Virus record (IMG/VR): IMGVR_UViG_3300022752_000015
Span: 1 to 64,000 of that record
DNA length: 64,000 nucleotides
Source: a virus
Reading direction: 5' to 3' (one strand)
Shown: positions 11,847 to 27,390 of the stretch, in pieces
Position numbering within the stretch: the stretch's first letter is position 1
How the letters are laid out: every line of letters begins with the position of its first letter
Translations under genes and position numbers: made by a program
Notes under the pieces: generated by a model
The model's database searches: none
What the model saw: only the letters and a program-made list of their open reading frames with translations
What the model was told of the DNA's origin: nothing

Positions 11847-12079
11847 CTGAGAACCTCGAGAATTTCTTCCATCTCATCATTCAAGAGGAGTGCCCTCATC
11901 ACCAGGTTATCGGGTGTAACGAGGGCCTCGATGGTGGTGTAGTGAGTTGTGTAGTGGGATGGTGGAGTTACCTTGAGAACCACCGCGATCCAATCGAAGT
12001 CCTGGGAGATGATTTCCCTGAAGATAGCCACACCGGATGTTTGGTATCGATTCCTTCGAAATAGATCACCAGGTTTCAT
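11843..12079 (-). CDS. array mini-barrel protein
   Basis: 78 residues. MKPGDLFRRNRYQ, I-A-V-V-L-K-V, a Thr/Tyr/His repeat-like loop (HYTTHYTT) and ending ILEVLR. No Trp motif. Four-base overlaps on both sides. Confidence 0.8.
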   Translation of the reverse strand: MKPGDLFRRNRYQTSGVAIFREIISQDFDWIAVVLKVTPPSHYTTHYTTIEALVTPDNLVMRALLLNDEMEEILEVLR

Positions 12080-12360
12080 AGCTCCTCTTCAGGAATCACT
12101 CGAAAATCATGGGTGTGGTACCCGAATCGAACCAATCCATCGTTCCCCACGAAGATCCCATGGCCCTTCATCCCTGGGATTTCACCTAGGAAAAGTATTG
12201 GATTTCCGGGGCGAAGTGGGTACAACCTTTCATCCTGGGGAGGTGGAGTAAATACCACCAAAAATCCTGAGGTAATTCCTCTAGGGAAATTAACGGGATT
12301 TTTTAGGTGTTCATCCAGGGGTATCCATGTTTCAACCTGGTGTTTTTGGTAGATTGCCAT
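12076..12360 (-). CDS. divergent array-type protein
   Basis: 94 residues from the ATG at 12360 (MAIYQKHQVETW), with AGAGAGG upstream. The start box is internal (LRPGNPILFLGE) and is followed by G-H-G-I-F-V-G and DGLVRFGYHTHDF, so the barrel is preceded by about 50 extra residues. Overlaps the upstream YRV-type gene by 29 bases. Confidence 0.7.
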   Translation of the reverse strand: MAIYQKHQVETWIPLDEHLKNPVNFPRGITSGFLVVFTPPPQDERLYPLRPGNPILFLGEIPGMKGHGIFVGNDGLVRFGYHTHDFRVIPEEEL

Positions 12361-12619
12361 TTTGTGCCTCTCTGAGGATTTGTTCCACAGGTTTTTCACG
12401 TTCTCCGCGGAGATCTCGTTGGGTATCCCTCCATGGTAAGGAACCTCTTTCCCACCTGCGAACCTGATCCGGAGATTCTAGGAGTTTGATTGAGAAAACC
12501 TCGGATCCTCGGTTATCAACCTCATCGGTGAGGTGTTTGAACCCGATCATCTCGGCTTCTTTTTCATTTTCACATTCCACCAGGAGATCGGTGAGGAATG
12601 AGACTCGATAGATGGCCAT
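12332..12619 (-). CDS. YRV-type small protein, paralog of 8183-8425
   Basis: 95 residues. IYRVSFLTDLLVEC and RRWERGSLPWRD align with the 8183 gene, with the added similarity of A-E-x-I-G-F in both. Leaderless first gene of the operon that runs into array block 2. Unknown function. Confidence 0.75.
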   Translation of the reverse strand: MAIYRVSFLTDLLVECENEKEAEMIGFKHLTDEVDNRGSEVFSIKLLESPDQVRRWERGSLPWRDTQRDLRGEREKPVEQILREAQNGNLPKTPG

Positions 12620-12626
12620 GGTGTTG

Positions 12627-12656
12627 TATACTAATCCATTTTTAGTGGGTTTTCAC
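12627..12656 (-). promoter_or_regulatory. class I promoter of array block 2
   Basis: GTGAAA (12651-12656) and a -10 region around 12627-12633 (AGTATA at 18-base or TAGTAT at 17-base spacing), with the ATG at 12619 seven or eight bases beyond. Slightly off the six-base rule. Confidence 0.65.
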
Positions 12657-12862
12657 CGAATGATTTCAAGGAATTCGTTGGGGATCCACCCGTGGGCATT
12701 GGGGAATGCCACCTGGGAACGGTAAGAGTGTTGTTCCGTTATGATTCCGAGTGAACCATAGGGGATAATCAGGGATGAATTGATTCGATTGTTGAAGAGT
12801 TCCGTGTAGGGTATGGCACCACCGGTGTTACAAACCCTGATCAAGGTTCCTACTGGATACAT
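12653..12862 (-). CDS. array mini-barrel protein, end of block 3
   Basis: 69 residues from the ATG at 12862 (MYPVGTLIRVCNT). S-L-G-I-I-T-E, VAFPNAHGWIPNEFLEIIR. The upstream TAG is embedded at bases 11-13 of this gene. Confidence 0.8.
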   Translation of the reverse strand: MYPVGTLIRVCNTGGAIPYTELFNNRINSSLIIPYGSLGIITEQHSYRSQVAFPNAHGWIPNEFLEIIR

Positions 12863-13050
12863 GGGTGAATTTCCTGGAGATCCTTGGAATCGAAGGTGTG
12901 AACCATGGAGGTTGTTGGAACGAGACACCGGCAGAAGTACATGGTGTACTTGAATTCAACATCGATGATGAGGAGTGGTTGATCGTAGTAGGGTGAGGTG
13001 CGGTACTTCGTGAGCCTCACCATGGAACCCCTGTTGAATGGTGGGTTCAC
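12850..13050 (-). CDS. array mini-barrel protein, GTG start
   Basis: 66 residues from GTG at 13050 (VNPPFNRGSMVRLTKY), chosen for GTGA overlap. L-L-I-I-D-V, RCLVPTTSMVHTF follow; divergent C-terminus. Confidence 0.75.
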   Translation of the reverse strand: MNPPFNRGSMVRLTKYRTSPYYDQPLLIIDVEFKYTMYFCRCLVPTTSMVHTFDSKDLQEIHPCIQ

Positions 13051-13262
13051 TGTTGAACCTCCTTCATGCCAACAGTACAAATATAGCCCACTCGCTGATC
13101 GGAGAGAAGCACCTTGGCCCAGTTATCTCGATGTGGAATCTCAGACTGGAGGACGAGAATGGGTTGATTCTCCAGCACGCGGACCGAATCTCCGTAGCGA
13201 AGATCCGGATAGAAGTTCACGTATGAACGAGGAGGAACTACGATGAGAGATCCTGGTTTCAT
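13047..13262 (-). CDS. array mini-barrel protein
   Basis: 71 residues from the ATG at 13262 (MKPGSLIVVPPRS), ATGA overlap. P-I-L-V-L-Q-S, AKVLLSDQRVGYICTVGMKEV, with Gly-Tyr in place of Gly-Trp. Confidence 0.8.
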   Translation of the reverse strand: MKPGSLIVVPPRSYVNFYPDLRYGDSVRVLENQPILVLQSEIPHRDNWAKVLLSDQRVGYICTVGMKEVQQ

Positions 13263-13510
13263 GATCCTCGACGATATTGGGATGCAGGGATGAGGAAACG
13301 GGCCACACACCAACCAATGTGACCGGTGGAGGAGAGGACCTTTGCATAGGTGATCTGCTCTCGGCCGATGGCGTCGGGAGTCTCCAGGAGTTCCACGATG
13401 ATTCCGAGCTGATACCTGCTGAAGATCGTGGAGGAATAGTAGAGGGATGGATCGGTGCAGAGATCCACGTAGCTTGGTGTGGTCACCATGTTACCAACCC
13501 TGAGGTCCAT
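13259..13510 (-). CDS. array mini-barrel protein, first gene of block 3
   Basis: 83 residues. MDLRVGNMVTTPS, long loop, Q-L-G-I-I-V-E, AKVLSSTGHIGWCVARFL. The ATG is at +1 of a class I promoter. Confidence 0.85.
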   Translation of the reverse strand: MDLRVGNMVTTPSYVDLCTDPSLYYSSTIFSRYQLGIIVELLETPDAIGREQITYAKVLSSTGHIGWCVARFLIPASQYRRGS

Positions 13511-13516
13511 GGTTTC

Positions 13517-13546
13517 ATTGTATCATGGGACGTGAGGGGATTTCAC
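13517..13546 (-). promoter_or_regulatory. class I promoter of array block 3
   Basis: GTGAAA (13541-13546), 18 bases, TACAAT (13517-13522), six bases, ATG at 13510. It lies just beyond the terminator of the preceding gene, giving a clean transcription boundary. Confidence 0.85.
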
Positions 13547-13552
13547 GGGATG

Positions 13553-13584
13553 AAAAACGACCGGGAGTGTTTAGTTCCCGGTCG
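13553..13584 (-). terminator. intrinsic terminator after LamG-like gene
   Basis: Perfect 9-bp stem (CGACCGGGA, 13558-13566, with TCCCGGTCG, 13576-13584) and a 9-base loop, followed on the minus strand by five T residues (13553-13557). It terminates the gene ending at 13621. Confidence 0.85.
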
Positions 13585-13620
13585 AAAACTAGGTTAAGTT
13601 TTTAGTTGTGATCAGATCAA

Positions 13621-14472
13621 TCAGATCGATATTCCATAACGAGAAGACAAGTAAGACAAGGTAGCGGCTCTTTCTGAGCTATCGTGTTCCTTCTTGTAGT
13701 AGATTATCTCAGCGATTTTGCCATCGAAGGATCCATTTCCCATCGTTACTTTGTTAACGGGGGATGGAAGAGCTGGAACTGCTCCTGAATTAAATGAATC
13801 AGTGATTGTTTGTGACACACCATTTACTGCTTGGAAGGCACTTCCTACAGTCCCGCCTTGCGAGATTTTTAGCTCTACAATTCTGGCAGTAGAATCTATA
13901 GAATAATTGTAAAGATTAGCCGCGTAACCCGTCTCCAAACCTAAACGTTTTGTGCCCCATTGATCTGCCAAAAATAGCGAAATCATGCTTTGCTGCTGGT
14001 AAGTACCTAATGTACCGTATGTGAATATCCTTTTGGGATCGCCCACATAATTGTCGATGGAAATAACCGCGTATATAGTTAATGCAGAATCTCCAGATAG
14101 GTATGCAGCAGGTGATGTCATAGCTAGGTATGAGCCATAAAATAATCCCCCAGGTCCTGATGATACGAAACTAACTGCCGGTTGATTATTGAAAGCTGCT
14201 ACTGAGGATAGGTAAGTAGGTGGTTGCATAGGTGCTGCAAATTCGCCTGGTACTGTTAGTACATCACCAGAAGCTGAACGATCAGCCCAGCTGTTGACTG
14301 CTGCACCGTTAGAAGAGCCTGCATCATCCGCTCTAAACCACGCGCCGAGCAGTGTCATTGGAGGCGATCCACCACCTCCACCGCCACCACCACCCGATGA
14401 TGTGATGCTTATACCACCACCAATTCCTGTAAATTTGATGGATCCGCCGGATCCTTTTGATACTATGGCCAT
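13621..14472 (-). CDS. LamG/concanavalin-like adhesin or tail-fibre protein
   Basis: 283 residues. A glycine-rich leader with a run of nine Gly (about residues 27-35) is followed by a beta-sandwich-type domain: LLGAWFRADDAG near 41, NSWADRSASGD near 60, LTIYAVISIDN near 130 and IAEIIYYKKEHDSSERAATLSYLSSRYG at the end. The layout matches LamG-like jelly-roll domains found on phage fibres and host adhesins (family knowledge). Base usage differs from its surroundings: GC dinucleotides are ordinary here but scarce on both sides. Has its own terminator and a GGAG site; a 9-bp inverted repeat precedes it. Confidence 0.7.
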   Translation of the reverse strand: MAIVSKGSGGSIKFTGIGGGISITSSGGGGGGGGGSPPMTLLGAWFRADDAGSSNGAAVNSWADRSASGDVLTVPGEFAAPMQPPTYLSSVAAFNNQPAVSFVSSGPGGLFYGSYLAMTSPAAYLSGDSALTIYAVISIDNYVGDPKRIFTYGTLGTYQQQSMISLFLADQWGTKRLGLETGYAANLYNYSIDSTARIVELKISQGGTVGSAFQAVNGVSQTITDSFNSGAVPALPSPVNKVTMGNGSFDGKIAEIIYYKKEHDSSERAATLSYLSSRYGISI

Positions 14473-14483
14473 AAAATCTCCAG

Positions 14484-14508
14484 ATTGAACAACCTAAATT
14501 TGTTCAAT
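14484..14508 (-). promoter_or_regulatory. inverted repeat in leader of LamG-like gene
   Basis: ATTGAACAA (14484-14492) and TTGTTCAAT (14500-14508) form a 9-bp inverted repeat with a 7-base spacer, directly upstream of the ribosome site of the gene starting at 14472. It could be an operator or a leader hairpin. It also contains TTGAAC, the -35 word of class II promoters, but no -10 at the right distance. Confidence 0.5.
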
Positions 14509-14542
14509 CAAATATAAATATCAGCAAAATTCAATGTTGAAT

Positions 14543-14743
14543 TCAATTTGACTCAACTCTTTCCATGTAATCCTCGTAGAACTGGTGTGTTTTTCCATCG
14601 GGTGTAAGGACCTCCACGATGTTGTCGAGGAATCGATCGGAGAAGAAGGTTCGTAGCACCACGTAGACCTGAGGTTCATCAGAGAACTTTACGAGTTCGC
14701 CGAGGAGGAGAGGTTCTCTCCATGTTTTAGGGGAGCGCTTCAT
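14543..14743 (-). CDS. array-type mini-barrel protein
   Basis: 66 residues from the ATG at 14743 (MKRSPKTWREPLLLGELVKFSD), ATGA overlap with its upstream partner. Start box about 14 residues in; V-Y-V-V-L, VEVLTPDGKTHQFYEDYMERV. The end strongly resembles 17432-17677 (VLTPEGKMYQFYDYEL). Confidence 0.8.
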   Translation of the reverse strand: MKRSPKTWREPLLLGELVKFSDEPQVYVVLRTFFSDRFLDNIVEVLTPDGKTHQFYEDYMERVESN

Positions 14744-14928
14744 TTTACAAGGTCCATGTAGTTTTCGGTTTCTTCCACTATTAAACCATCCTCGCAGAGT
14801 ACATACCACCAACGGTGTTGTTGATCACCCCACCAGTTGGTACGAGGAGATTCGTATAGAATTATACCAGTGAGAGGTTTTCCTTCACGACCTTCTTGAC
14901 GTCCCATGACCAAATCACCTGGTTTCAT
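14740..14928 (-). CDS. array-type mini-barrel protein
   Basis: 62 residues. MKPGDLVMGRQEG, L-T-G-I-I-L-Y and WYVLCEDGLIVEE. First gene of a two-gene operon behind a class I promoter with a 6-base leader. Confidence 0.8.
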   Translation of the reverse strand: MKPGDLVMGRQEGREGKPLTGIILYESPRTNWWGDQQHRWWYVLCEDGLIVEETENYMDLVK

Positions 14929-14940
14929 TTCTTCGATAAT

Positions 14941-14970
14941 AAGATAATATCCTCAAGCTGTTTATTTCAC
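14941..14970 (-). promoter_or_regulatory. class I promoter variant
   Basis: GTGAAA (14965-14970), 18 bases, TATCTT (14941-14946), ATG at 14928 twelve bases beyond, so a short leader is expected. Confidence 0.6.
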
Positions 14971-15011
14971 TTTTTCGGGAACTTATTGTTTCTCCGGTTT
15001 TCTAATGCATC

Positions 15012-16301
15012 ATGGCAAAAGAAGAAATTCTCAGTTTTGTTGGCAGTACAAGATCCGTTGAATTGAGGTTGGAATGGGGTAACTCAACCTTGAAGGTTGT
15101 TGATCTAGATCCTCCTAGGAACTTCACTGTTGGAAACACGATACACTGCGATCATCACCTTCCCATCGAACCGGTGGAAATCATTCATGTTGAAGGTGAT
15201 GATGTTTTTCTATGTGGAGAAAAGCTGGGTTTTGATGTTGAGAAAACCATTGAACATGGTGGTGTTACGTTCCGTGCTCGGTTGGGGGATAGAGGTGAGA
15301 AGGTTGTTGGCGGGTTTGAATTAGGAAATGGTGGGTGGTTCAATGGATTATCAGCTGTGATTCATGCCGCGTTCCTGGGTGTCATATTCTACTACAATCC
15401 CCTGTTGAATTCCACCGAAGATGGATCGATAACCGAGGAACAGAGGATTGTTTTATCTCAGTATCTTTCCACCGCGGCCGAGAGGGAGGAGAAGAGGATG
15501 GAATCCGAGGTGGAAAATGTTCTAAGCGGTGGTGAGGTTGGTGGAAGATCCAAAGGAAGTGAAGGAAACATGGGAAGTAGTTCCTCCAAACCTTCCAACT
15601 CACGTTACACGGTTGCAGGACCGAAGGATAATGTGGATCCACATGTATCGAAACAGGTTGCTCTAAAGGATGCTGAGAACTTTGGAATGGTTGGATTGTT
15701 GAGTTCCACCGGAGGAGATCCGAATTCTCCAACATCTCCTTGGGGTAGAGATGATTCTCTTGGAAATGATGCGGTGAGTTTCAATGGTTCACTTTGGGGT
15801 GATCAACCTGGGGATAACTTTGGTTCCAATGGATTGGGGCTTTCTGGGATAGGTGAAGGAAGTGGTGGGCCTGGTGAGGGGATAGGCGTTGGACCGAACA
15901 TTGGGGGTTTGGGGAACAACATTCATCATGGGTTTGGACCACCAGGAGTGTTATCGAAGAAGTATGTGCAGAAGGATATAAAGATGAGACCGAGTTCGAC
16001 CAGTGTATCAGGAAGAATTCCGCCTGAGGTAATACAGAGGATTATTCGCCAGAATTATGGGCGGTTCAGGGCGTGTTACGAAACGGGGTTGAGGAACAAC
16101 CCATCGTTGAGCGGAAGGGTTGCGGTGAGGTTTGTTGTAGGGCGAGATGGGTCAGTGGCGAGTGTTGGGAATGGTGGATCTGATCTACCTGACGGAGGGG
16201 TTGTGAATTGTGTGGTGAATTCCTTCAGAGGTCTGTCGTTTCCTGCCCCTGATGATGGAATCGTGTCTGTAGGATACTCAATACAGTTTTCACCGGGATG
16301 A
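15012..16301 (+). CDS. AgmX/GltJ-type protein with TonB-like C-terminal domain
   Basis: 429 residues. N-terminal about 105 residues form a beta-rich cytoplasmic segment that may be FHA-like. One membrane span follows (about 113-131, LSAVIHAAFLGVIFYYN), then a long Gly/Ser-rich low-complexity linker (about 170-325), then a C-terminal domain from about 338 (IPPEVIQRIIRQNYGRFRAC ... GRVAVRFVVGRDG ... SDLPDGGVVNCVV ... LSFPAPDDG). That domain is what I remember as the AgmX/PglI C-terminal domain of myxobacterial gliding and envelope proteins. It spans the periplasm from an inner-membrane anchor. In a phage this suggests capture from the host. No ribosome site; TCTAAT lies five bases before the ATG, so it too may be leaderless. 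Confidence 0.75.
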   Translation: MAKEEILSFVGSTRSVELRLEWGNSTLKVVDLDPPRNFTVGNTIHCDHHLPIEPVEIIHVEGDDVFLCGEKLGFDVEKTIEHGGVTFRARLGDRGEKVVGGFELGNGGWFNGLSAVIHAAFLGVIFYYNPLLNSTEDGSITEEQRIVLSQYLSTAAEREEKRMESEVENVLSGGEVGGRSKGSEGNMGSSSSKPSNSRYTVAGPKDNVDPHVSKQVALKDAENFGMVGLLSSTGGDPNSPTSPWGRDDSLGNDAVSFNGSLWGDQPGDNFGSNGLGLSGIGEGSGGPGEGIGVGPNIGGLGNNIHHGFGPPGVLSKKYVQKDIKMRPSSTSVSGRIPPEVIQRIIRQNYGRFRACYETGLRNNPSLSGRVAVRFVVGRDGSVASVGNGGSDLPDGGVVNCVVNSFRGLSFPAPDDGIVSVGYSIQFSPG

Positions 16302-16310
16302 TTGTTGACT

Positions 16311-16505
16311 TCATTGTAACTTCTTTAAGTGACGGCTAAAGTAGGTCTTCACCGTTCCATCTGGGAATAACAACGTGCAAGTGGACTTCCTGAGCTTCAC
16401 AGTTCTACCCGATCCCACGACGAGCAGGATCGGGTATTTTCCCTCTTTAATCCACGCCGAAGGAATGTTGAGCGTGACGAGTTCACCGACTTTGAACGAA
16501 TCCAT
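16311..16505 (-). CDS. array-type mini-barrel protein
   Basis: 64 residues. MDSFKVGELVTLN, Y-P-I-L-L-V-V, CTLLFPDGTVKTYFSRHLKKL. Convergent with the TonB-like gene. Starts one base after the stop of its upstream partner. Confidence 0.8.
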   Translation of the reverse strand: MDSFKVGELVTLNIPSAWIKEGKYPILLVVGSGRTVKLRKSTCTLLFPDGTVKTYFSRHLKKLQ

Positions 16506-16506
16506 G

Positions 16507-16719
16507 CTAACGATTGTGGACGATTATCTTGTTGTCGTCGACTCCTTCCCACACATCATACCAGAATCTCTTCTCATTATCCTCAAGCAGTTCAAAGGAA
16601 TATAGGATTGAATGTTTGCCGTGTAAATCTGAAGTGTCTTTGACGTTGAGGACAAGCCCATGGAACGTAAGGTTTGACGCCCACTCGTAGGTCACGAGGT
16701 CTCCAACGCGAACCTTCAT
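16507..16719 (-). CDS. array-type mini-barrel protein
   Basis: 70 residues. MKVRVGDLVTYEW, H-G-L-V-L-N-V, FELLEDNEKRFWYDVWEGV. ATGA overlap upstream. Confidence 0.8.
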   Translation of the reverse strand: MKVRVGDLVTYEWASNLTFHGLVLNVKDTSDLHGKHSILYSFELLEDNEKRFWYDVWEGVDDNKIIVHNR

Positions 16720-16964
16720 GACTTCTCGTAGGAAACCATGGAGAACTTGCTCATGGTGTGGATGCCGGTGGGGGTGAGGACCTGCACGAAGGTCTCATAT
16801 TTCCCAGGGATGACAATCGCTGGAAAGATCTCTGAATCGCTGACAAAACTCATGAGATCCTCGAGATAGTAGTTGCCACCCTTACAGCTGTTTTGAGCAT
16901 CTGTGCTTGGATACATCAAAGATCCCATAGGAACATCGAAGATGTAGGCGTCACGGAAGTGCAT
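16716..16964 (-). CDS. array-type mini-barrel protein, leaderless
   Basis: 82 residues from the ATG at 16964 (MHFRDAYIFDVPMGSLM), selected because a class I promoter puts it at +1; a start 12 codons upstream would lie within that promoter. P-A-I-V-I-P-G, VQVLTPTGIHTMSKFSMV follow. Confidence 0.75.
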   Translation of the reverse strand: MHFRDAYIFDVPMGSLMYPSTDAQNSCKGGNYYLEDLMSFVSDSEIFPAIVIPGKYETFVQVLTPTGIHTMSKFSMVSYEKS

Positions 16965-16970
16965 GTCTAT

Positions 16971-17000
16971 ATTGTATCGATCGTGTTGCAAAAATTGCAC
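16971..17000 (-). promoter_or_regulatory. class I promoter, GTGCAA sub-type
   Basis: GTGCAA (16995-17000), 18 bases, TACAAT (16971-16976), six bases, ATG at 16964. Confidence 0.8.
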
Positions 17001-17013
17001 GAATAAATCAGCA

Positions 17014-17424
17014 TCACTTCATGTTGAAAAGCGTCAGGCCTGACAGCGTGAGCAAGGTGGCCACGAGGTGCTTCAATTCGAACTCTTCGTTGAGGAAAGC
17101 TATCGACAGCACGGTCGTGATGACAGGTGAGGCAGATATCATCACCGAAAGTGCTCCTGTCGTGTTCGATGATTTCAATAGCATCCCAAACATCACAGCA
17201 CCACAGATGTGCAGACACGTGGTGATCACTGCGTAGATCACGCCTTGTGAATCTATGGACGAGTGTTTGGGCGCAAAATTGTACCATGCCGGGACCAGTG
17301 CCAGATAAATGAAAGCAGAGATGATCTGCATGTGGTAAGGATGAATTTTATCGACAGATAATTTTCGAAAGAACGCAGACAATCCGAAAGACAAAATTGT
17401 TGCTGCGATCAGTATGCGGTTCAT
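17014..17424 (-). CDS. half-size EamA/DMT-family membrane transporter
   Basis: 136 residues with five predicted membrane spans (about 2-20, 34-50, 61-82, 91-111, 120-133). The fourth and fifth, SVMISASPVITTVLSIAFLN-EE and LVATLLTLSGLTLF, are typical of the EamA domain of drug/metabolite transporters. Normal EamA proteins have two such domains; this has one and would act as a dimer. Substrate cannot be read from sequence. Probably inserted in the host inner membrane. TATAAG lies six bases before the ATG, so it may be leaderless, but no matching -35 is visible. Unusual cargo for a phage. Confidence 0.75.
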   Translation of the reverse strand: MNRILIAATILSFGLSAFFRKLSVDKIHPYHMQIISAFIYLALVPAWYNFAPKHSSIDSQGVIYAVITTCLHICGAVMFGMLLKSSNTTGALSVMISASPVITTVLSIAFLNEEFELKHLVATLLTLSGLTLFNMK

Positions 17425-17431
17425 TGGATTC

Positions 17432-17677
17432 TTATATTAACACATTTTTTAGATAATTTTCGTCAGAAGCAAGAGTTAACTCATAATCATAAAATTGGTA
17501 CATCTTGCCTTCAGGTGTCAAGACGTCGCATATCATACGTTTATAGTCAGCCACACGCTGCTCTTCCTTGTAAACATTTAACACCACGAAGACAGAATCA
17601 TTCCAATGCGGGAGGATGTTGTCATATCCAAACCACATAGGATCTATTCTGACGAGGTCTCCTAACTTTAATTTCAC
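17432..17677 (-). CDS. array-type mini-barrel protein, GTG start
   Basis: 81 residues, GTG at 17677 (KLKLGDLVRIDPM). S-V-F-V-V-L-N-V, CDVLTPEGKMYQFYDYEL. Near relative of 14543-14743 at its C-terminus. Confidence 0.8.
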   Translation of the reverse strand: MKLKLGDLVRIDPMWFGYDNILPHWNDSVFVVLNVYKEEQRVADYKRMICDVLTPEGKMYQFYDYELTLASDENYLKNVLI

Positions 17678-17681
17678 TGCT

Positions 17682-17924
17682 CTATATTTTTTCTAAGATT
17701 GCTGTTTTTGTCCATCCTGTCGTTCCGTCTGACAGCATTAAAAAAATGTTGTGTTGCCTTAAGTACACCACAAGCATTATGTCACCAGGTCGTATTATGC
17801 TCGTTACATCTAGAGAAGAGTCTTCGTAGTCTGGGCCTGCCCATAGAACATATCCCATCTTGAACGATGGATTGTCATTTTTGAATATGACTAGATCGCC
17901 GATCTCGATGGGATCGTGACACAC
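17682..17924 (-). CDS. array-type mini-barrel protein with doubled start box
   Basis: 80 residues. EIGDLVIFKNDN near the start and a second box, IIRPGDIMLVVYL, near residue 43, then IFLMLSDGTTGWTKTAILEKI. The repeated Gly-Asp box suggests an internal rearrangement. ATAAATA lies just upstream on this strand. Confidence 0.75.
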   Translation of the reverse strand: MCHDPIEIGDLVIFKNDNPSFKMGYVLWAGPDYEDSSLDVTSIIRPGDIMLVVYLRQHNIFLMLSDGTTGWTKTAILEKI

Positions 17925-17966
17925 ATAAATTAAGTATTTATCGAATATCGATTTTCATCGAAAAAT

Positions 17967-18197
17967 TTAGTGTAAAGTCTCTTTAGCAAACGTATAAGGA
18001 GCAGTAGACACTAGAGGTGAAATCGTAGTTCCATCGTATACCCAGGGAACATGTGGAGCTGCATCATCATGATTTTTGTTTAAAAGTCTAACAACATCAT
18101 GGATGTAATCCAATTTGGAACTTATTTCAAAAACGTCCACGGCGGTGCCATGCTTGTCGACGACAAAGATAAAAGGAAGCGGAACGACTATTTGCAA
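17967..18197 (-). CDS. small hypothetical protein
   Basis: 76 residues. Hydrophobic start (QIVVPLPFIFVVD) too short for a confident membrane span, then a polar C-terminal half. Overlaps the upstream coiled-coil gene by 10 bases. No family recognised. Confidence 0.6.
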   Translation of the reverse strand: MQIVVPLPFIFVVDKHGTAVDVFEISSKLDYIHDVVRLLNKNHDDAAPHVPWVYDGTTISPLVSTAPYTFAKETLH

Positions 18198-18388
18198 TTT
18201 TTTACCTCTAGTTCGATTTTTTGTCGCAGTTTTTTCAATCTCTCAACAGAATCATAATCTGCGTATTCTAGTTCGACGCCGATCGCAATGTTGACTGTTT
18301 CATTCGCCTCTTTTAGGAGGCTGACTAGATTTTCGATCCTTACCTTGAGCTCATCTCTTTCAATGATGACTTTATCCAACGCCTTCAT
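18188..18388 (-). CDS. small coiled-coil protein
   Basis: 66 residues from the ATG at 18388 (MKALDKVIIERDELK). A TTG 14 codons upstream would overlap the nuclease gene and is an alternative. Heptad-like leucines through residues 5-35 and again near the end suggest a two-helix coiled coil. Position next to the nuclease hints at a partner role, unproven. Confidence 0.65.
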   Translation of the reverse strand: MKALDKVIIERDELKVRIENLVSLLKEANETVNIAIGVELEYADYDSVERLKKLRQKIELEVKNCK

Positions 18389-18410
18389 AGTATTACAACT
18401 TAATTTATCA

Positions 18411-19115
18411 TCACAAGTCGTTTTTTTCAATAATAGAAGAAAAAATTGCTTTCTTAAAGTCTCTTACGACATTCTCGTGTTGTTTAGAGAGCATCGTGGT
18501 CTCGCCCGCCTTCCCGCTGCCATACCATGTGCCGACAGGGCACAGAGAAAACCACGTTTTATGAACTCGTTTATCGTCTCTTGGAAATCCTTTCCAGGTG
18601 GTATCGGTCCCAACAAACAGCATGATCGAATTGGGATCTAGGCCTGCAGCTTTGAACTCTTCAATCCTTTTCAAGAAATCGCCTTCCCATTCCTTACGAC
18701 GGCGCCCTAAAGACGTTTTGCACTCCACGATCAATTTTAGTTTTTCGTCTTTCCAAATTCCAACGTCAGGTTTTCGATATCCTGATGGCAACTTCACGTT
18801 TTTCTCTGAAGACACTTGAAATCCAAGATGCCTCATCGTAGGTTGTCTGATAAATGAATCAACAAGCATGTTGACAGACTCAGTCACGATCTCTGATAAA
18901 GCGGGTTCTTTTGCTCTGCCAAGAGTCTCTGACAATGCGCGGACCCGAAGAGCAGAAGTATCCAGATATTTGCATAATGATGACTGTAATTGATCTTCAG
19001 ACAATCTCAAGTCTGCCGCCAAGTCGCAGGCCGTTGCATAGTTCAACAATTCCTGTGTGGGCTGGATCTGCTTGTAGCTGAAATTCCGCTTGATTCTTTC
19101 GACCAATGATTCCAT
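18411..19115 (-). CDS. PD-(D/E)XK nuclease-like protein
   Basis: 234 residues. The C-terminal half has KPDVGIWKDEKL (D117) followed by LIVECKTSLG (E131, K133), the D-x13-E-x-K signature of restriction-endonuclease-fold enzymes, plus a nearby Arg/Lys-rich patch. The N-terminal 90 residues are helical. Could be a phage restriction enzyme-like nuclease used on host DNA or in recombination. No methyltransferase is seen nearby, which argues against a classical restriction-modification pair within this window. Confidence 0.7.
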   Translation of the reverse strand: MESLVERIKRNFSYKQIQPTQELLNYATACDLAADLRLSEDQLQSSLCKYLDTSALRVRALSETLGRAKEPALSEIVTESVNMLVDSFIRQPTMRHLGFQVSSEKNVKLPSGYRKPDVGIWKDEKLKLIVECKTSLGRRRKEWEGDFLKRIEEFKAAGLDPNSIMLFVGTDTTWKGFPRDDKRVHKTWFSLCPVGTWYGSGKAGETTMLSKQHENVVRDFKKAIFSSIIEKNDL

Positions 19116-19129
19116 CTTTTCCTCTTACG

Positions 19130-19360
19130 TCAGCAAGGATTGTTTCGATAATATTGGATCAATTGGAGTATTTTTTCCATCTCTAAATCGTCACAATCCT
19201 TATAGGATCTTCCTAGCCTAGCTTTCAGGCGTTCCCAAATGTGGGCATATGAGTTGCGCTGCTTCAAAAATTTGCAAGGAGGTAAGCGACCTTTAAGATG
19301 ATCTCCTGCTTCACGAGCAGCCTTGCGAACGATTTCTTGATTCTCCTTGGACAACCCCAT
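19130..19360 (-). CDS. small hypothetical helical protein
   Basis: 76 residues from the ATG at 19360 (MGLSKENQEIVRKA). Another ATG three codons upstream lies inside the -10 box of a class I promoter and would not be on the mRNA. Basic, helical, two Cys residues, ends YYRNNPC. No family recognised. Confidence 0.65.
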   Translation of the reverse strand: MGLSKENQEIVRKAAREAGDHLKGRLPPCKFLKQRNSYAHIWERLKARLGRSYKDCDDLEMEKILQLIQYYRNNPC

Positions 19361-19367
19361 GCATTTC

Positions 19368-19397
19368 ATTGTAACACGTCAAGGTGTCAGATTTCAT
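19368..19397 (-). promoter_or_regulatory. class I promoter variant
   Basis: ATGAAA (19392-19397), 18 bases, TACAAT (19368-19373), ATG at 19360 seven bases beyond. Confidence 0.6.
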
Positions 19398-19731
19398 GAA
19401 CATGAAGCATGTTTATTTCGTAGACAAATCCGCTACCAGAGGCTGCAGTAACGTACCAGTAATTTGCTCCCATTTTTCTTGACAGAAAGACTGTCGTCAC
19501 GACGTCACCAAAAGAAAAATATCCTAAGGGGTGTTGTATGTCATTGTCTGCAACCCAGTACGGTACTAAATCATATGCGATGATTGCAAGATCTCCAGGA
19601 TTAAATTTAGATTTTTTTTCATCTATTTTTTTTTGACGTTCGTTGTAACATTTCTCTGAACAGAAATTCCCGTTCTCGCCACAGATCACGAATGTGTTCG
19701 GAATCACGTTCGAACATTTCTTCTTGCTCAT
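19387..19731 (-). CDS. zinc knuckle plus mini-barrel protein
   Basis: 114 residues. An N-terminal Cys cluster (C6, C17, C24, C28; FCSEKCYNERQKK) resembles a treble-clef zinc site. It is fused to an array-type barrel with start box KFNPGDLAIIAYD near 42, then G-D-V-V-T-T-V-F and SGFVYEINMLHV. TAGGAT lies six bases before the ATG, so it may be leaderless, but the -35 is poor. The only fusion of a zinc knuckle to this barrel in the window. Confidence 0.75.
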   Translation of the reverse strand: MSKKKCSNVIPNTFVICGENGNFCSEKCYNERQKKIDEKKSKFNPGDLAIIAYDLVPYWVADNDIQHPLGYFSFGDVVTTVFLSRKMGANYWYVTAASGSGFVYEINMLHVHEI

Positions 19732-19757
19732 AATTTGATCCTATCATATTATAAGAA

Positions 19758-19961
19758 TTACTGCGTGGCAAAAGGCATCAAAAGTTCAATCGGTACGTTT
19801 TTCACCGTACCATCAAATGTCAAAACTTTGGCGGATCTGCACGTTGCGGGTTGATTTGGATACGACAATATGATCACCATACGACGGTTCAGGTTAGCTG
19901 ACGTGCCGTCTGAATTTTCGTACGCGTCGGTGTAATCCCAGGCAAGGTCACCGAGTTCCAT
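19758..19961 (-). CDS. array-type mini-barrel protein
   Basis: 67 residues from the ATG at 19961 (MELGDLAWDYTDA). R-M-V-I-I-L-S, AKVLTFDGTVKNVPIELL. Starts in frame further upstream overlap the divergent late-type promoter and lack the box at their N-terminus. Confidence 0.75.
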   Translation of the reverse strand: MELGDLAWDYTDAYENSDGTSANLNRRMVIILSYPNQPATCRSAKVLTFDGTVKNVPIELLMPFATQ

Positions 19962-19963
19962 AT

Positions 19964-19973
19964 ACATAAATAT
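19964..19973 (+). promoter_or_regulatory. late-promoter-like motif before lysozyme
   Basis: ACATAAATAT, close to the T4 late consensus TATAAATA. It occurs again before the fibre gene and near 25240. Transcription from here would leave a leader of roughly 45 bases carrying GAGGAGG for the gene at 20027. Confidence 0.5.
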
Positions 19974-20026
19974 TGAATCAGCAAAAATTCGCAAGTGAAT
20001 TATATTTATTTTTGAGGAGGTTTGTC

Positions 20027-20794
20027 ATGAACAACCTAAAAACCTCAAAAAATGGATTGGAATTTATTTCTAGATGGGAAGGCGTCGTGTTACAACCGTA
20101 CATGGACGTTGGGGGATTGTGGACTATCGGGATTGGACATTTAATAACTCCGTACGATTCGTTTAGTACGATACCTAATGAAAAAGTTAAGGCGTTGTTA
20201 AAATCCAAAGATAGATCTCATCCTTATTCAGAACTTTTGATATCTAGAGAGGAGGCGCTGGAGTTCCTTGCAAGAGACATAGTCGACGTGGAAACAGCGC
20301 TCAATCGAGATATCAGAGTTCCTCTCAATCAGAATCAATTTGATGCGCTCGTATCGTTTGGATTTAACTGCGGTACAGGCGTTTTCAAAACTTCAGGAGC
20401 GTGTAGAGCGTTGAACGCAGGAAATTACAATGCTGTTGCAGAAAGATTATTAGATTGGAGTAAAGTAAGAATTGGTGGCGAACTGAGAACGAATAAAGGT
20501 CTTTTGGCAAGACGAACCGCTGAAGGAGAATTATTCAACAAAATTCCGTTTGTTCCTGTCGATCCGCACGAAGTACCAACAATCGTGTCGTGGACGAGAG
20601 AAACAATCATGGATACTCAAACCAGGCTGAAAATGCTTGGCTTGTATCCAGGAGTAATCGACGGGATTATGGGACCAGCCACAAGAAAAGGAATCGAAGA
20701 TTTCTCAAAAAAATACAACGTACCGACAGGCGCGGACCCAAAGATAGGAATTGCTCCTTCATGGTTAGCTGCGCTCGCAAAGGTGGTCGGATAA
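20027..20794 (+). CDS. endolysin: T4-type lysozyme with peptidoglycan-binding domain
   Basis: 255 residues from the ATG at 20027 (GAGGAGG seven bases upstream). Residues about 10-175 are a GH24 lysozyme: catalytic E18 (SRWEG), D27 and T33 (DVGGLWTIGIGHL) have the same spacing as E11/D20/T26 of T4 lysozyme. Residues about 195-255 form a PG_binding_1-like domain (TQTRLKMLGLYPGVIDGIMG). It cleaves the glycan chain of host peptidoglycan at lysis. No signal peptide, so a holin is expected to release it; a candidate is at 40113. Stands alone between a mini-barrel gene and the fibre gene, behind a late-type motif. Confidence 0.92.
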   Translation: MNNLKTSKNGLEFISRWEGVVLQPYMDVGGLWTIGIGHLITPYDSFSTIPNEKVKALLKSKDRSHPYSELLISREEALEFLARDIVDVETALNRDIRVPLNQNQFDALVSFGFNCGTGVFKTSGACRALNAGNYNAVAERLLDWSKVRIGGELRTNKGLLARRTAEGELFNKIPFVPVDPHEVPTIVSWTRETIMDTQTRLKMLGLYPGVIDGIMGPATRKGIEDFSKKYNVPTGADPKIGIAPSWLAALAKVVG

Positions 20795-20871
20795 AAAATC
20801 AAACAATATAAAATTCATGAGGAATTTTGTAAAAAAATTAAAATCAATTTTTCACAAAAATTCAGTAGCGA

Positions 20872-20881
20872 ACATAAATAT
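20872..20881 (+). promoter_or_regulatory. late-promoter-like motif before fibre gene
   Basis: ACATAAATAT, same as at 19964. The predicted start of transcription falls at or inside the hairpin at 20883-20909. Confidence 0.5.
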
Positions 20882-20882
20882 T

Positions 20883-20943
20883 CATATGGGAAGATGAGCT
20901 TCCCATATGACAAGTACGTACAACTAAGGACCCTGCTGGGTCC
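20883..20943 (+). promoter_or_regulatory. two leader hairpins of fibre mRNA
   Basis: A perfect 11-bp stem (CATATGGGAAG / CTTCCCATATG, 20883-20893 with 20899-20909, loop ATGAG) sits at the expected mRNA 5' end. A second stem (GGACCC / GGGTCC, 20928-20943) follows, then AAGGATG before the ATG at 20966. No T-run follows either, so they are not terminators. A stabilising 5' stem-loop is the likely role. Confidence 0.6.
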
Positions 20944-20965
20944 GCAACAAAGGATGATATAAGTT

Positions 20966-22972
20966 ATGGCAAGAACATTCGTTCAGCAATCACAGATCAG
21001 TGGTTCATTAACATTTAACGATGCGATGGAAGCAGGCTCCGCGCTTGCTGGCAAGCAGACACTCGTAGGCGACCTCGACGCACTCCGCTCGCAGATCAAC
21101 AAGATCGTCGGCGGTGAGCGCTGGTACGATGCACTCAGCGGTTCACAAAACCTCGCAGACATCTACGCAGCATTGCAGGTAACTGGGGCTGATGCAAGCT
21201 TCCAGGGCGCAATGGACGTCGCTGGTGTGGCAGATTTTGATTCAGCAGTCTTCATGGCTTCTGATCTCGGAGTTTCTGGTTCGCTCGTTGTAGCAGGTCT
21301 TGCAGACCTCAACGGCGCACTTGAAGTAGCCGGAGTAGCTGACTTCGCTTCTGCAGCCTACATGGCTTCGGATCTTGGCGTCAGCGGCTCGCTCACAGTT
21401 GCAGGCCTCTCTGACCTCAACGGCGCCCTCGAGGTTGCTGGTGTGGCAGACTTCGCTTCAGCAGTCTACGCGGCTTCTGACCTCGGTGTCAGCGGATCAA
21501 TCACGGTTGCAGGACCTGCAACAATGAATGATGGCCTCACCGTAACAGGCGATCGTCTCGAAGTAACAGGTTCCATGGGCATCACCGGTGCAGTCGACTT
21601 CGACAGCACGCTCAACGTCGATGGCGTTGCAGACTTCAAGGCAGACGTCTATATGGCAGCTGCTCTCGGCGTCTCAGGTTCTGCATCTGTAGCAGGAGCA
21701 CTCGACGCAGGTTCACTCGAAGTTGCAGGTCTCTCTGACCTCAACGGTGCACTTGAAGTAGCTGGTGTTGCAGACTTCACATCTGACGTCTACATGGCAG
21801 CAGCCCTCGGTGTAAGCGGTTCGCTCACAGTTGCCCAAGCAGCAACGCTCTCTAATGGCCTCACGGTCAATGGAGCAGCTGCTGACTTCAATGCTGACGT
21901 AACAGCAAACAAGATCAGCATCGATGGCGATGCTGCTATGCACCTCTACATCGTTGATGCAGATGGTTCTATCAAGGATGAAGCTGCACTTTGGTTCGAC
22001 GGAACCAAGCTCTACGTGACCGGCGCTCTTGAGATCTCAGATGACCTCAAGGTCGGTGGAAACGACATCATCGACGGTTCCGACGCAACAGTGATCACAT
22101 TCAAGTCGATCAACAGCGTCGCCTCCAGCGTCGAAGTTGCAAACAACATGGAAGTCAAGGGCGACATGTTCTATGCCGTCAGCGCTTCTTTCTCAGGAGA
22201 CGTCACAGTCCAAGGTGATCTCACGATCCAGGGCTCGATGACATACATCGACACCGAGAACCTCAAGGTGAAGGATGCACTCATCCACCTCAACACAGGC
22301 GGAAACTCTAACCTCTCTCCACGTGGCCTTGTGCTCCATGGCGACCAGGCATATGACGATCTCGCCTTCGGCGCAAAGCCTGCTTCTGGTGACTTCGTCC
22401 TCGCAAAGGAAGTCTCTGACGCAGACGTCGACGCAGGAAACAGCGACGTATTCGCTAACGCGAAGCTCGCAGCAATGTGGATGTCTGAGATCAAGCTCGG
22501 TGGCATCGAAGGATCGCTCAGCGGTTCATTCGTGGCAACAGCAGCTGGTGCAGAACTCAGCTCAACAGCAGCACTCTCAGTCGCAGCAGCAGACGACATG
22601 ACCCTCGGTGCCAACGGCGAAGAAATCGGTCTCATGTCATCCGCCGAGAAGGGCGACTTCGACACGAACTTCGATGCAACGACGATCGTCGGCGCTCTCA
22701 ACGAGCTCTTCGACATGATCGGCGGTGGTTCTGCAGCTAAGGGTGACCTCAGCGTGGCAAACGTCGCAGGTAACACACTCACCTTCAGCTCGATCGGCAC
22801 ACTCACGGCAGCAGAACACAAGTTGGTCGACGTTTACCTCAACGGCGTCCTTCTCTCTCCAAGCCGCGATCTCTCCGGTCTCACAACGACAACTGTCGAC
22901 CTCGACTCTGCAATCGCCAGCGGCCTCATGGCTGATGACGTTATCACAGTCGTGATCCGCAGCGCAGTCTGA
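20966..22972 (+). CDS. repetitive fibre/structural protein
   Basis: 668 residues. From about residue 85 there are 36-residue repeats built on V-A-G-V-A-D-F ... S-D-L-G-V-S-G-S ... D-L-N-G-A-L-E (starting near 85, 121 and 157, then degenerate copies to about 330), a pattern typical of beta-helical trimeric fibres. The centre has LKVKDALIHLNTGGNSN, seen in large-phage fibre proteins. The C-terminal 90 residues may be an adhesive or trimerisation tip (VDVYLNGVLLSPSRD). Codons are strikingly C/G-ending (CTC, GAC, GTC, AAG), unlike all neighbours. Repeats differ mainly at synonymous sites. Probably an abundant virion protein tuned to a GC-rich host. Confidence 0.8.
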   Translation: MARTFVQQSQISGSLTFNDAMEAGSALAGKQTLVGDLDALRSQINKIVGGERWYDALSGSQNLADIYAALQVTGADASFQGAMDVAGVADFDSAVFMASDLGVSGSLVVAGLADLNGALEVAGVADFASAAYMASDLGVSGSLTVAGLSDLNGALEVAGVADFASAVYAASDLGVSGSITVAGPATMNDGLTVTGDRLEVTGSMGITGAVDFDSTLNVDGVADFKADVYMAAALGVSGSASVAGALDAGSLEVAGLSDLNGALEVAGVADFTSDVYMAAALGVSGSLTVAQAATLSNGLTVNGAAADFNADVTANKISIDGDAAMHLYIVDADGSIKDEAALWFDGTKLYVTGALEISDDLKVGGNDIIDGSDATVITFKSINSVASSVEVANNMEVKGDMFYAVSASFSGDVTVQGDLTIQGSMTYIDTENLKVKDALIHLNTGGNSNLSPRGLVLHGDQAYDDLAFGAKPASGDFVLAKEVSDADVDAGNSDVFANAKLAAMWMSEIKLGGIEGSLSGSFVATAAGAELSSTAALSVAAADDMTLGANGEEIGLMSSAEKGDFDTNFDATTIVGALNELFDMIGGGSAAKGDLSVANVAGNTLTFSSIGTLTAAEHKLVDVYLNGVLLSPSRDLSGLTTTTVDLDSAIASGLMADDVITVVIRSAV

Positions 22973-23008
22973 ACCTAATACGTTCCCTTAATAAAATAAG
23001 GTGAGCTT

Positions 23009-23041
23009 CGGAGGCCTCGAAAGGGGCCTCCGATTTTTTTT
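23009..23041 (+). terminator. intrinsic terminator after fibre gene
   Basis: Stem CGGAGGCC (23009-23016) with GGCCTCCG (23025-23032), 8-base loop, then A and eight T residues. Confidence 0.92.
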
Positions 23042-23056
23042 GGTATATTTAGTTAC

Positions 23057-23665
23057 ATGAGCATAATCGAAAATTTAGCACATTCTTTAGTAATTGTCCA
23101 AGAGTTGGGCGTGAAGACAGATGACGCGCTTGAGAAAAAAAAGGAAGAAATAAAGCTTACAGCGGGTGGCGTCGCGGCCATCACAGAGCTTGTTAGGATT
23201 CATAGCGAATTTATGGAAAAGAACAAGCAAGAGCTCGAAGCAAAAGTAAAAGAAGGCAAATTAACCCAAGAATTCGTTAAAGCTGCTATGAGCATCTCTT
23301 CAAAATCGCACGACGTTGTTAAAAAATTCTTGACAGACAAAACGGCTCAATACAACATAAAACGAGGAGAATCTTTGGCTTTGGAGTCTAGCGTGAAACT
23401 GTTGAAAACGACTCACGACGTGTTAGACAATAACAAACGTTCAATAGAAGAAGCAAAGAAAGCAGAATTGGAAGCAAAGAAAGCAGAAAATGAGCTTCTT
23501 GAAAAGCAAAGAGAAGAACAAACGCAACAAGTTCGTTTTGAAGAAATTAGTGAGGTCCCAAAGAAAGCAGTGGGCAGAAAGAAAAGAAGACCTGACGAAG
23601 CAGCTCACGTTTCAGAAACTGTGAACAGGCTTAAAGAATCTCGCAGAAAAAAAGCCAATAAATAA
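23057..23665 (+). CDS. highly charged coiled-coil protein
   Basis: 202 residues, almost entirely helical and charged, with a long Lys/Glu/Ala coiled coil (about 120-170, repeats of KKAELEAKKAENELLEK type) and a basic tail (VGRKKRRPDEAAH, RRKKANK). No known domain. Sits behind the fibre terminator with its own TATATT-type -10 just before the ATG. Could be a scaffold or DNA-associated virion protein; unproven. Confidence 0.7.
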   Translation: MSIIENLAHSLVIVQELGVKTDDALEKKKEEIKLTAGGVAAITELVRIHSEFMEKNKQELEAKVKEGKLTQEFVKAAMSISSKSHDVVKKFLTDKTAQYNIKRGESLALESSVKLLKTTHDVLDNNKRSIEEAKKAELEAKKAENELLEKQREEQTQQVRFEEISEVPKKAVGRKKRRPDEAAHVSETVNRLKESRRKKANK

Positions 23666-23666
23666 G

Positions 23667-23855
23667 CTACCAAATCTCTCTACTCGTGTAGTTTCTTTTT
23701 GGAGGAATGCTCCAAAGAATCAAAATTTCTTCTGCAGATAAAAACTCAATAACCATTCCGGTCGCGTTTTCATCTGCAGAAGATTTGACAAGACATCCTA
23801 CGGATAACTCTTCATCGAGAGCAATTACTTCTTTTATAGACACAACTAACTTCAC
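23667..23855 (-). CDS. array-type mini-barrel protein, isolated copy
   Basis: 62 residues, GTG start at 23855. Start box near residue 18 (LSVGCLVKSSADE), then G-M-V-I-E-F-L and ILILWSIP. TATATA lies six bases before the GTG, so it may be leaderless. Convergent with the coiled-coil gene, two bases apart. Confidence 0.7.
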   Translation of the reverse strand: MKLVVSIKEVIALDEELSVGCLVKSSADENATGMVIEFLSAEEILILWSIPPKRNYTSREIW

Positions 23856-23867
23856 GTGATCTATATA

Positions 23868-24740
23868 TCACAAATTCTTGCAACACCTGAATCCTTGCTG
23901 GTAAAAGGTATGTCCAGGACCATGATTGCGAGTGGCAGGACGGCATCTTGTTCTAACAGTCCCCCAATACCCTCCTTTGAGAACTGAAGAGTAAGGATAC
24001 TGACTCTTTATCGTTCCGACAGTCCATTCATCTACGGACCCATTCATATCCTCAACGCCGAAAAAAGAGGCACATTGAGGTGCAGACCCGCTGCGGTGGC
24101 CCTGCCACAATCGCTTTAACTCTCGTGAACATTCTTGTGACCCACGCCGGGACAGGAATTTTTGTGAATATCTCTTCCATGGATTGTCCAAGTTACATTC
24201 TTGAGAATTACGTGTATAACCGTAAGGGAAAGGAGTGGCCTCCTCACCTTCGCAGGCAAAGGTCCATTCATCCTCGGCACATAGACGTTTACCGACGGAT
24301 TCACATAACTTTTGAGATTCGCCCCACGTGATCATGACCCATGGGTATGCACCCTTCTTGTTGGGCCATTCGTACTTATCAATGCAGAACGACATCGGTT
24401 TGCGAGGAAAGCGGTTCGATACTTCAAGCCATTTATCACGATCAAAAGACGCGCAACGTTCGGGGTACTTCCTCTCTATCCACTTCGTGCATGTGGTCTT
24501 CTGTAGAGACTCAATAGAGTTGTTGTTCCAACTTCCTAATCCACCATCATCTAACATGGTTCCTGAAACAAGAAGCATGTCTTCAGGACATCCTGAATCT
24601 GAGATGGGTAATGGATTTAAATCGTATGAAATTGCCTCATACGACCACCAGACCTTATTAAAAAAACCTGGAGAGATATGTGTCGATTGGCGGATCGACA
24701 GTATCTCTCCAGAAAGGAGATATGCTATGGCTAGTAGCAT
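23868..24740 (-). CDS. secreted FGE-sulfatase/SUMF1-fold protein
   Basis: 290 residues from the ATG at 24740, just after the upstream stop; a start 20 codons earlier would overlap that gene. The first 16 residues are hydrophobic (MLLAIAYLLSGEILSI) and may be a signal sequence. Conserved points of the FGE-sulfatase domain: MLLVSG (55-60), CIDKYEWPN (119-127), GKRLCAEDEWTFACEG (150-165), FFGVEDMNGSVDEWT and GGYWGTVRTRCRPATR near the end, then GFRC. Many Cys residues suggest disulfides in the periplasm. These domains include formylglycine-generating and sugar- or metal-binding members; I cannot assign catalysis. Common in myxobacteria. Confidence 0.8.
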   Translation of the reverse strand: MLLAIAYLLSGEILSIRQSTHISPGFFNKVWWSYEAISYDLNPLPISDSGCPEDMLLVSGTMLDDGGLGSWNNNSIESLQKTTCTKWIERKYPERCASFDRDKWLEVSNRFPRKPMSFCIDKYEWPNKKGAYPWVMITWGESQKLCESVGKRLCAEDEWTFACEGEEATPFPYGYTRNSQECNLDNPWKRYSQKFLSRRGSQECSRELKRLWQGHRSGSAPQCASFFGVEDMNGSVDEWTVGTIKSQYPYSSVLKGGYWGTVRTRCRPATRNHGPGHTFYQQGFRCCKNL

Positions 24741-24753
24741 ATTATTAAGTATA

Positions 24754-25176
24754 CTACTGCTGAGGACACATGTTAAAACATTGCGCGTAACAAACGTCAC
24801 AATTGCAAGTTTTTACTTTGCTTGGCGTAAAAAGAGTTTGAATTGATTCATCGCAGGAATTGTAGCAAATTTCCTCAGCATCGTTAATCACGCAAGATTC
24901 GGTGCAATCTTTCCACGCCTTACAACTCATTGATGATAGACAATCTTCATTCTCATCCAAACAAGCTTCTGATGCCGCTCCAAGGCACCACAGACATTCT
25001 TCAGCTGCGATTGATGTACTGTCGTCAGGGGATGCAGGTGGAGGTTCCTCTTGCGGAGAAAGACACTTGTCGTCACCACACTTGCTGTTAGATGGTGGAG
25101 AAGGTGCGACGTCGATGCAAGAGGTAACAAAGAAAACTGAAGCGATTGCTAGAGAAATTGTTTTTGAGAAACGCAT
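24754..25176 (-). CDS. Cys-rich lipoprotein
   Basis: 140 residues. Signal peptide ending in a lipobox (FFVTSC, Cys20), then a Pro/Ser-rich linker and a Cys-rich domain with about 16 Cys in residues 30-140 (CLWCLG, CNCDVCYAQCFNMC). Such Cys-rich lipoproteins are frequent in myxobacteria. It is probably anchored in the outer or inner membrane and disulfide-bonded. Leaderless by position: TAAATT ends six bases before the ATG, with TTGAAC 17 bases further up. Followed by the FGE-fold gene in the same operon. Confidence 0.8.
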   Translation of the reverse strand: MRFSKTISLAIASVFFVTSCIDVAPSPPSNSKCGDDKCLSPQEEPPPASPDDSTSIAAEECLWCLGAASEACLDENEDCLSSMSCKAWKDCTESCVINDAEEICYNSCDESIQTLFTPSKVKTCNCDVCYAQCFNMCPQQ

Positions 25177-25182
25177 AACGAT

Positions 25183-25211
25183 AATTTACTGTAAAATCTT
25201 TGCTTGTTCAA
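25183..25211 (-). promoter_or_regulatory. class II promoter, divergent pair (left)
   Basis: TTGAAC (25206-25211), 17 bases, TAAATT (25183-25188), six bases, ATG at 25176. Its -35 is the mirror image of the right-hand promoter's -35, three bases away. Confidence 0.75.
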
Positions 25212-25214
25212 CGA

Positions 25215-25244
25215 TTGAACACCTTGCAACAAGTGATGTACATA
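25215..25244 (+). promoter_or_regulatory. class II promoter, divergent pair (right)
   Basis: TTGAAC (25215-25220), 18 bases, TACATA (25239-25244), six bases, ATG at 25251. GTTCAA-CGA-TTGAAC forms a palindrome (25206-25220). A late-type ACATAAATAT (25240-25249) overlaps the -10. Confidence 0.7.
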
Positions 25245-25250
25245 AATATC

Positions 25251-26677: not shown

Positions 26678-26777
26678 CAGGACCTCCTGGCCGGAGGGGC
26701 TGAGCTCCAGCCTTATTAATAGCTATTCATCTGTGATCGCTCATTTTACAAAAATCGTAAAAGAATTTTACGTTACG

Positions 26778-27320: not shown

Positions 27321-27355
27321 GATTCTCCTTCTGGTAATTGTCTTACATAATTAAA

Positions 27356-27384: not shown

Positions 27385-27390
27385 ACTAAC

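Follow-up and report, generated by a model that had tools for sequence, protein, structure and literature searches.

GltG (PglI), a component of the Agl-Glt gliding machinery of Myxococcota, is the closest named relative of the protein examined here, ahead of AgmX/GltJ. In Myxococcus xanthus it has been described as a bitopic part of the gliding machinery that has a TonB motif along with a cytosolic FHA domain and interacts in a two-hybrid assay with AglR, a TolQ-like motor subunit (PMC3169522); the corresponding genes lie in the order gltD-E-F-G (PMC3169522, Table 1). GltG and GltJ have further been portrayed as arms of the TolA/TonB kind, possibly extending to proteins of the outer membrane (PMC5349195). 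The window analyzed here, which comprises bases 1–64000 of a virus record totaling 212,804 bases whose other genes include those for an endolysin and a DNA polymerase of the DnaE type, contains an ORF at 15012–16301 (+) with an ATG start. Its 429-aa product is a GltG/PglI-like bitopic envelope protein with the same order of parts: an FHA-type fold, one membrane helix, a Gly-rich linker, and a TonB-like C-terminal domain. This is a genuine gene that purifying selection constrains strongly; derived from a host and carried by large phages, it encodes a phage-borne variant of GltG. Our searches of open-licence PMC literature yielded no report of a phage carrying a force-transducing part of the gliding or Tol/TonB type.

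Domain architecture and family assignment

The original prediction had placed a membrane span, a Gly/Ser linker, and a C-terminal domain at this position, and both the position and the parts are borne out by profile NF033768 and by an AlphaFold2 model (run on 36 window and locus sequences); the FHA-like N-terminal domain is an addition to that description. Residues 338–426 (16023–16289, +) match NF033768, the ‘AgmX/PglI C-terminal domain’, with 75.6 bits against a curated cut-off of 40 (E 2.6e-21), and this cut-off is exceeded in all five virus records that carry the gene. A longer segment, residues 174–426, matches the GltG model NF033760 (107.9 bits, E 5.2e-31) without reaching its equivalog cut-off of 650; since none of the 57 sampled Myxococcota genomes reaches that cut-off, it evidently suits a narrower group, and the Sorangium GltG homolog also falls short of it with 323. 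AgmX/GltJ has the NF033768 domain family in common with the phage protein, but the GltJ model scores the latter at only 14.1 bits (E 0.018). The initial AgmX/TonB-like label is retained for the AgmX/PglI C-terminal domain and its TonB/TolA fold, and replaced for the protein as a whole, which is GltG (PglI)-like rather than AgmX (GltJ)-like. A Pfam search of the window protein gave no match at all, recognizing neither the canonical FHA domain (PF00498) nor TonB_C, and querying the PDB by sequence with the C-terminal portion likewise returned no match.

Structural modeling resolved what these profiles miss. The C-terminal alpha/beta domain is predicted confidently (pLDDT about 90), whereas the linker appears disordered, with long stretches of pLDDT below 50 at residues 165–202 and 253–332; the overall pTM of 0.28 is low, as expected for domains sitting on a floppy linker. 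In fold searches with residues 335–429, TonB and TolA lead the list, with a best Z of 8.9 (rmsd 2.5 over 88 residues) to Helicobacter pylori TonB and 8.0 to Pseudomonas aeruginosa TolA, while the best Foldseek E-value of 1.7e-3 is moderate; we accordingly assign this domain a TonB/TolA-type fold, in which C355 and C400 are conserved. Upstream lies a single transmembrane helix (residues 108–128; 15333–15395, +), delineated by the AlphaFold2 model; all four distinct phage copies have Ser114 and His118 in it, at a spacing of four residues. A Ser/His pair with this spacing in a membrane helix is a motif of TonB and TolA. Between helix and C-terminal domain, alignments place a periplasmic helical stretch followed by the Gly/Ser-rich linker (residues 133–332; 15408–16007, +), with motifs common to host GltG. 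This linker and the additional FHA-like cytosolic domain set the phage protein apart from TonB/TolA, with which it has the C-terminal fold and the Ser/His membrane helix in common.

The N-terminal region (from residue 12 or 13 to about residue 94; 15048–15293, +) is modeled as a beta-sandwich expected to be cytosolic, with block-mean pLDDT values of 90–92 over residues 21–90 when modeled alone. VIA-align ranks FHA domains at the top (best Z 8.1, rmsd 2.4, 75 residues), and although Z-scores of 7–8 are, by the tool's own warning, common between unrelated folds, the run of FHA entries in the ranking makes the assignment credible. From the model, we regard this region as a probable degenerate FHA-like domain, distinct from a Pfam FHA. 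The three phage proteins checked (those of the window, L003, and L005) all lack a Pfam FHA match, whereas the host homologs L015 and L012 match FHA at 8.6e-13 and 1e-12.

As the original prediction had indicated, the protein matches myxobacterial gliding and envelope proteins: GltG homologs of Polyangia align with it over nearly its full length. Alignments with the listed host homologs run from residue 12–15 to residue 429, with 39–45% identity over residues 12–429 in most Polyangia homologs and 55% over residues 79–429 in the Sorangium homolog. At 429 aa, the phage protein is shorter than most GltG homologs with a long N-terminus (roughly 680–730 aa). Its gene also lies outside any glt cluster (gltD/E/F), surrounded by phage genes and small genes without assigned function, whereas the Sorangium relative L015—the top GltG match of its own genome, with an FHA domain—follows a gene for a GltE-like TPR lipoprotein, consistent with the M. 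xanthus order. Host chromosomes additionally carry FHA-less GltG-like paralogs outside the glt cluster, in Minicystis rosea (L040) and Polyangium sp. 15x6 (L041). Like the phage protein, these two have no Pfam FHA match, as was the case for all four host paralogs chosen for shortness (L040, L041, L044, and L045); they differ from it in being chromosomal, 574–579 aa long, and extended at the N-terminus. Immediately downstream of the FHA-less GltG-like gene of Polyangium sp. 15x6 lies another gene with an AgmX/PglI domain (L041 6765–8057), and the C-terminal part of its product is 65.5% identical to the phage protein.

Phage copies, chromosomal relatives, and host group

Six IMG/VR queries all returned the same four further records, defining a small phage set of five virus records that correspond to four distinct phages, each with one copy. 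The copy in L002 (a 200 kb record) is about 95% identical to the window protein and of the same length; L003 (77 kb) and L004 (301 kb) show no difference over a shared 3352 bp and were counted as one phage; and L005 is a 338 kb record. No relative was found in PHROGs or, by tblastn, in the INPHARED phage collection. On the chromosomal side, at least 56 relatives were confirmed among the 586 pattern matches listed, all bearing myxobacterial or delta-proteobacterial titles except L027 (‘Proteobacteria bacterium’), which falls inside Polyangia in the tree. At E-values up to 1e-20, 127 of 282 Myxococcota genomes match, the best being Sorangium.

For phylogenetic reconstruction we retained 84 ORFs, 80 of them host proteins, with alignments starting at query residue 120 or earlier and ending at 415 or later, lengths of at most 1100, and identical rows removed; a second tree of 75 proteins left out nine long-branch rows (L119, L129, L058, L118, L138, L136, L092, L117, and L131). 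In both trees, the phage copies nest within Polyangia, at either one or two positions. A single clade (support 100/100) unites the copies of the window, L002, and L003/L004; next to it stands a group of Polyangia paralogs (96/88 with 84 proteins; 89/87 with 75), which includes the FHA-less L040 and L041 genes (the same genes as L081 and L090). The L005 copy stands apart, near L084 and the FHA-type GltG of a groundwater lineage (L071, the same gene as L012); this placement depends partly on L084 (91/79, 75 proteins), and with L092 included L005 joined that long branch instead. L005 is 62.6% identical to the host GltG L013, above its identity to any phage copy. A single capture of all four phage copies is neither supported nor rejected (AU p 0.121). 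Because the phage copies lie inside Polyangia, the transfer is most simply read as having run from host to phage. The original prediction had called for a phylogeny of the C-terminal domain; all four phage copies fall inside the myxobacterial family, so its myxobacterial reading is not refuted, but three of them resemble another phage copy more closely than any host sequence.

The gene had also been taken as a pointer to the host group, and here the titles of the listed relatives and the nesting in the tree support Polyangia without proving it. Together with the similarity of an isocitrate lyase gene in the window, the nesting of the captured gene makes Polyangia the likely host group. The isocitrate lyase (31432–32676, −) shares 77% identity with its Polyangium sp. 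15x6 counterpart and 66% with the one from Salmonella, and as the enzyme is widely conserved it provides weak evidence on the host. It is complete, with a KKCGH motif and an NF011645 score of 761.9 bits against a cut-off of 562, and thus constitutes a phage-borne glyoxylate-shunt enzyme; the version in G001, a related phage, is 87% identical. A DNA comparison of window positions 12001–32000 with 377 Myxococcota genomes returned gene-level similarity, mostly to the isocitrate lyase gene, and short partial matches (among them 25–31 bases in a Gly-rich stretch near 14359–14398), with no CRISPR-spacer-like match or prophage link, so we infer the host from gene ancestry.

Selection and genomic neighborhood

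Relative to the L002 copy, dN/dS is 0.078 over the whole gene and falls along the protein from 0.25 (residues 1–108) through 0.079 (109–330) to 0.020 (331–429). The aligned block holding the gene is 91% identical to L002 at the DNA level, compared with 69–85% for the other surrounding blocks. We also compared the 74 window ORFs of at least 90 aa with the first 90 kb of G001, and 41 of these ORFs had a match covering half of their length: at 94.6% identity, the GltG-like gene tops this set, ahead of the next at 89.1% and a median of 53.8%, while the DNA polymerase is only 42% identical. Of 42 columns conserved in at least 78 of the 80 host rows, the four phage copies retain 39, 39, 39, and 41. 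Both C355 and C400 are present in every host and phage row (80/80 and 4/4), whereas S114 occurs in 72 and H118 in 52 of the 80 host rows. The gene's G+C content is 0.477 and its GC3 0.42, unlike the GltG-type host ORFs compared (GC3 0.76–0.95). Taken with dN/dS and the presence in five records, these values led us to reject both mis-binning of host DNA and an ORF arising by chance.

The small neighbors of the gene lie mostly on the opposite strand in the window, L002, and L003/L004, and the gene points away from them; a relative of one upstream gene (12076–12399, −) likewise occurs close to the copy in L003. A scan for consensus promoters and terminators stayed near chance level and gave no usable signal. 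The endolysin gene (19973–20794, +) shares the strand of the GltG-like gene and follows it at a distance of 3.7 kb; with the search confined to PF00959-type endolysins, Phage_lysozyme (PF00959) was found in one of the five phage records, so the linkage is not conserved. Adjoining the endolysin is a gene for a 668-aa protein (20966–22972, +) with weak structural and bactofilin-like matches. A phage-encoded motor of the TolQR/ExbBD type was considered and rejected: neither MotA_ExbB (PF01618) nor ExbD (PF02472) occurs in any of the five phage records, which may be fragments.

Several other window genes merit description. Between 2701 and 19994, 17 small minus-strand ORFs share a PGDLV-like motif near the N-terminus (17 of 124 ORFs of 55–140 aa in the first 20 kb; none of 115 in the remainder), apparently an array in which related small proteins surround the GltG-like gene. 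Close to that gene lies half of an EamA-type transporter (17014–17424, −; 136 aa, 80% identical in G001). Farther along, we identified an FGE-sulfatase-type domain protein (23868–24800, −; 73% identical in G001), a protein with a trypsin-like protease domain (25940–26677, −; Trypsin_2, E 2e-21) and, by eye, an apparent lipoprotein signal at its start, a thymidine kinase (44079–44642, −), and an IMP dehydrogenase (56162–57229, −).

Proposed role during infection and alternative explanations

We propose, at what we consider an even chance, that the protein is a membrane-anchored TonB-like transducer that engages a host motor of the Agl/Tol type and an outer-membrane partner, thereby displacing or bypassing host GltG. 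From the anatomy, ancestry, and selection documented above, we infer the following steps. During infection, the protein would insert by its single helix, so that the linker and TonB-like domain face the periplasm and the degenerate FHA-like domain faces the cytosol. The helix, through Ser114 and His118, would dock on a TolQR-type proton motor, AglRQS or a paralog, presumably that of the host, since the phage records yielded no motor gene; the retention of H118 in only 52 of the 80 host rows tells against such docking. The C-terminal domain would contact an outer-membrane or periplasmic partner normally met by host GltG; that this domain is the most constrained suggests that the contact is needed, as a mere motor decoy would have no use for it. 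Without a regulatory FHA domain, the protein would escape cellular control and displace or bypass host GltG, a step weakened by the host paralogs that also lack FHA. Diversion of the motor complex in infected cells could then cause gliding arrest, altered surface access, or unregulated envelope activity. Since host chromosomes carry FHA-less paralogs outside a glt cluster, and the window clade groups with such paralogs at 89/87, the lack of FHA did not originate with phages, and the protein may naturally pair with a paralog system that does not serve gliding.

Superinfection exclusion, in which the protein would occupy or disable an outer-membrane partner that serves rival phages as receptor or as power source for DNA entry, appears unlikely to us. 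Published exclusion factors are mostly small, whereas here the entire transducer is retained, with membrane helix and linker conserved; on the other side, the C-terminal domain is strongly constrained, and the orientation opposite to the neighbors' strand in the window, L002, and L003/L004 resembles that of a separately expressed accessory gene. There is also a precedent in PfsE, a phage inhibitor of Pseudomonas type IV pili described as binding an inner-membrane pilus protein, stopping twitching, and blocking superinfection (PMC8764522). PfsE is thus likewise encoded by a phage and directed at surface machinery of the host, but we claim no homology between it and the phage GltG, and it is not described there as copied from a component of such machinery (PMC8764522). 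Less likely still, in our assessment, is a working replacement that keeps an energized envelope process—outer-membrane stability, transport, or virion-spreading movement—running during host gene shut-off; it would fit the purifying selection on all force-transmitting parts and the occurrence of FHA-less paralogs as ordinary host genes, but it predicts the same sequence pattern as motor diversion.

A spanin-like role in lysis, linking the inner and outer membranes and destabilizing the latter late in infection, strikes us as very improbable: the protein could span the periplasm and has an endolysin gene on its strand nearby, but that linkage is confined to one record, and the TonB-like folded domain and motor-type helix are both retained, a combination to our knowledge unlike any known spanin. 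Phages do carry transient host genes, and the gene might on that ground be a recent passenger kept by chance, or a host fragment mis-binned with phage sequence; its recurrence in five records from four distinct phages, the low dN/dS, a base composition unlike that of the GltG-type host ORFs compared, and the DNA polymerase and endolysin genes on the same contig have already largely refuted this explanation, which we consider scarcely credible. Inhibition, exclusion, and replacement are not separable from sequence, and the simplest interpretation has the phage protein working with the host motor while competing with or replacing host GltG. More tentatively, large phages of Polyangia may have captured GltG, perhaps repeatedly, as a dedicated FHA-less tool that hijacks the host's proton-driven gliding or envelope motor, with selection acting strongly on its motor-coupling helix and on the domain extending to the outer membrane.

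If our proposal of a transducer engaging the host motor is correct, it would tie phage infection to the Agl-Glt/Tol motor family and supply a naturally minimal GltG that lacks the regulatory domain, useful for studying motor coupling and control. It would also point to the hosts of large phages that lack a known host.
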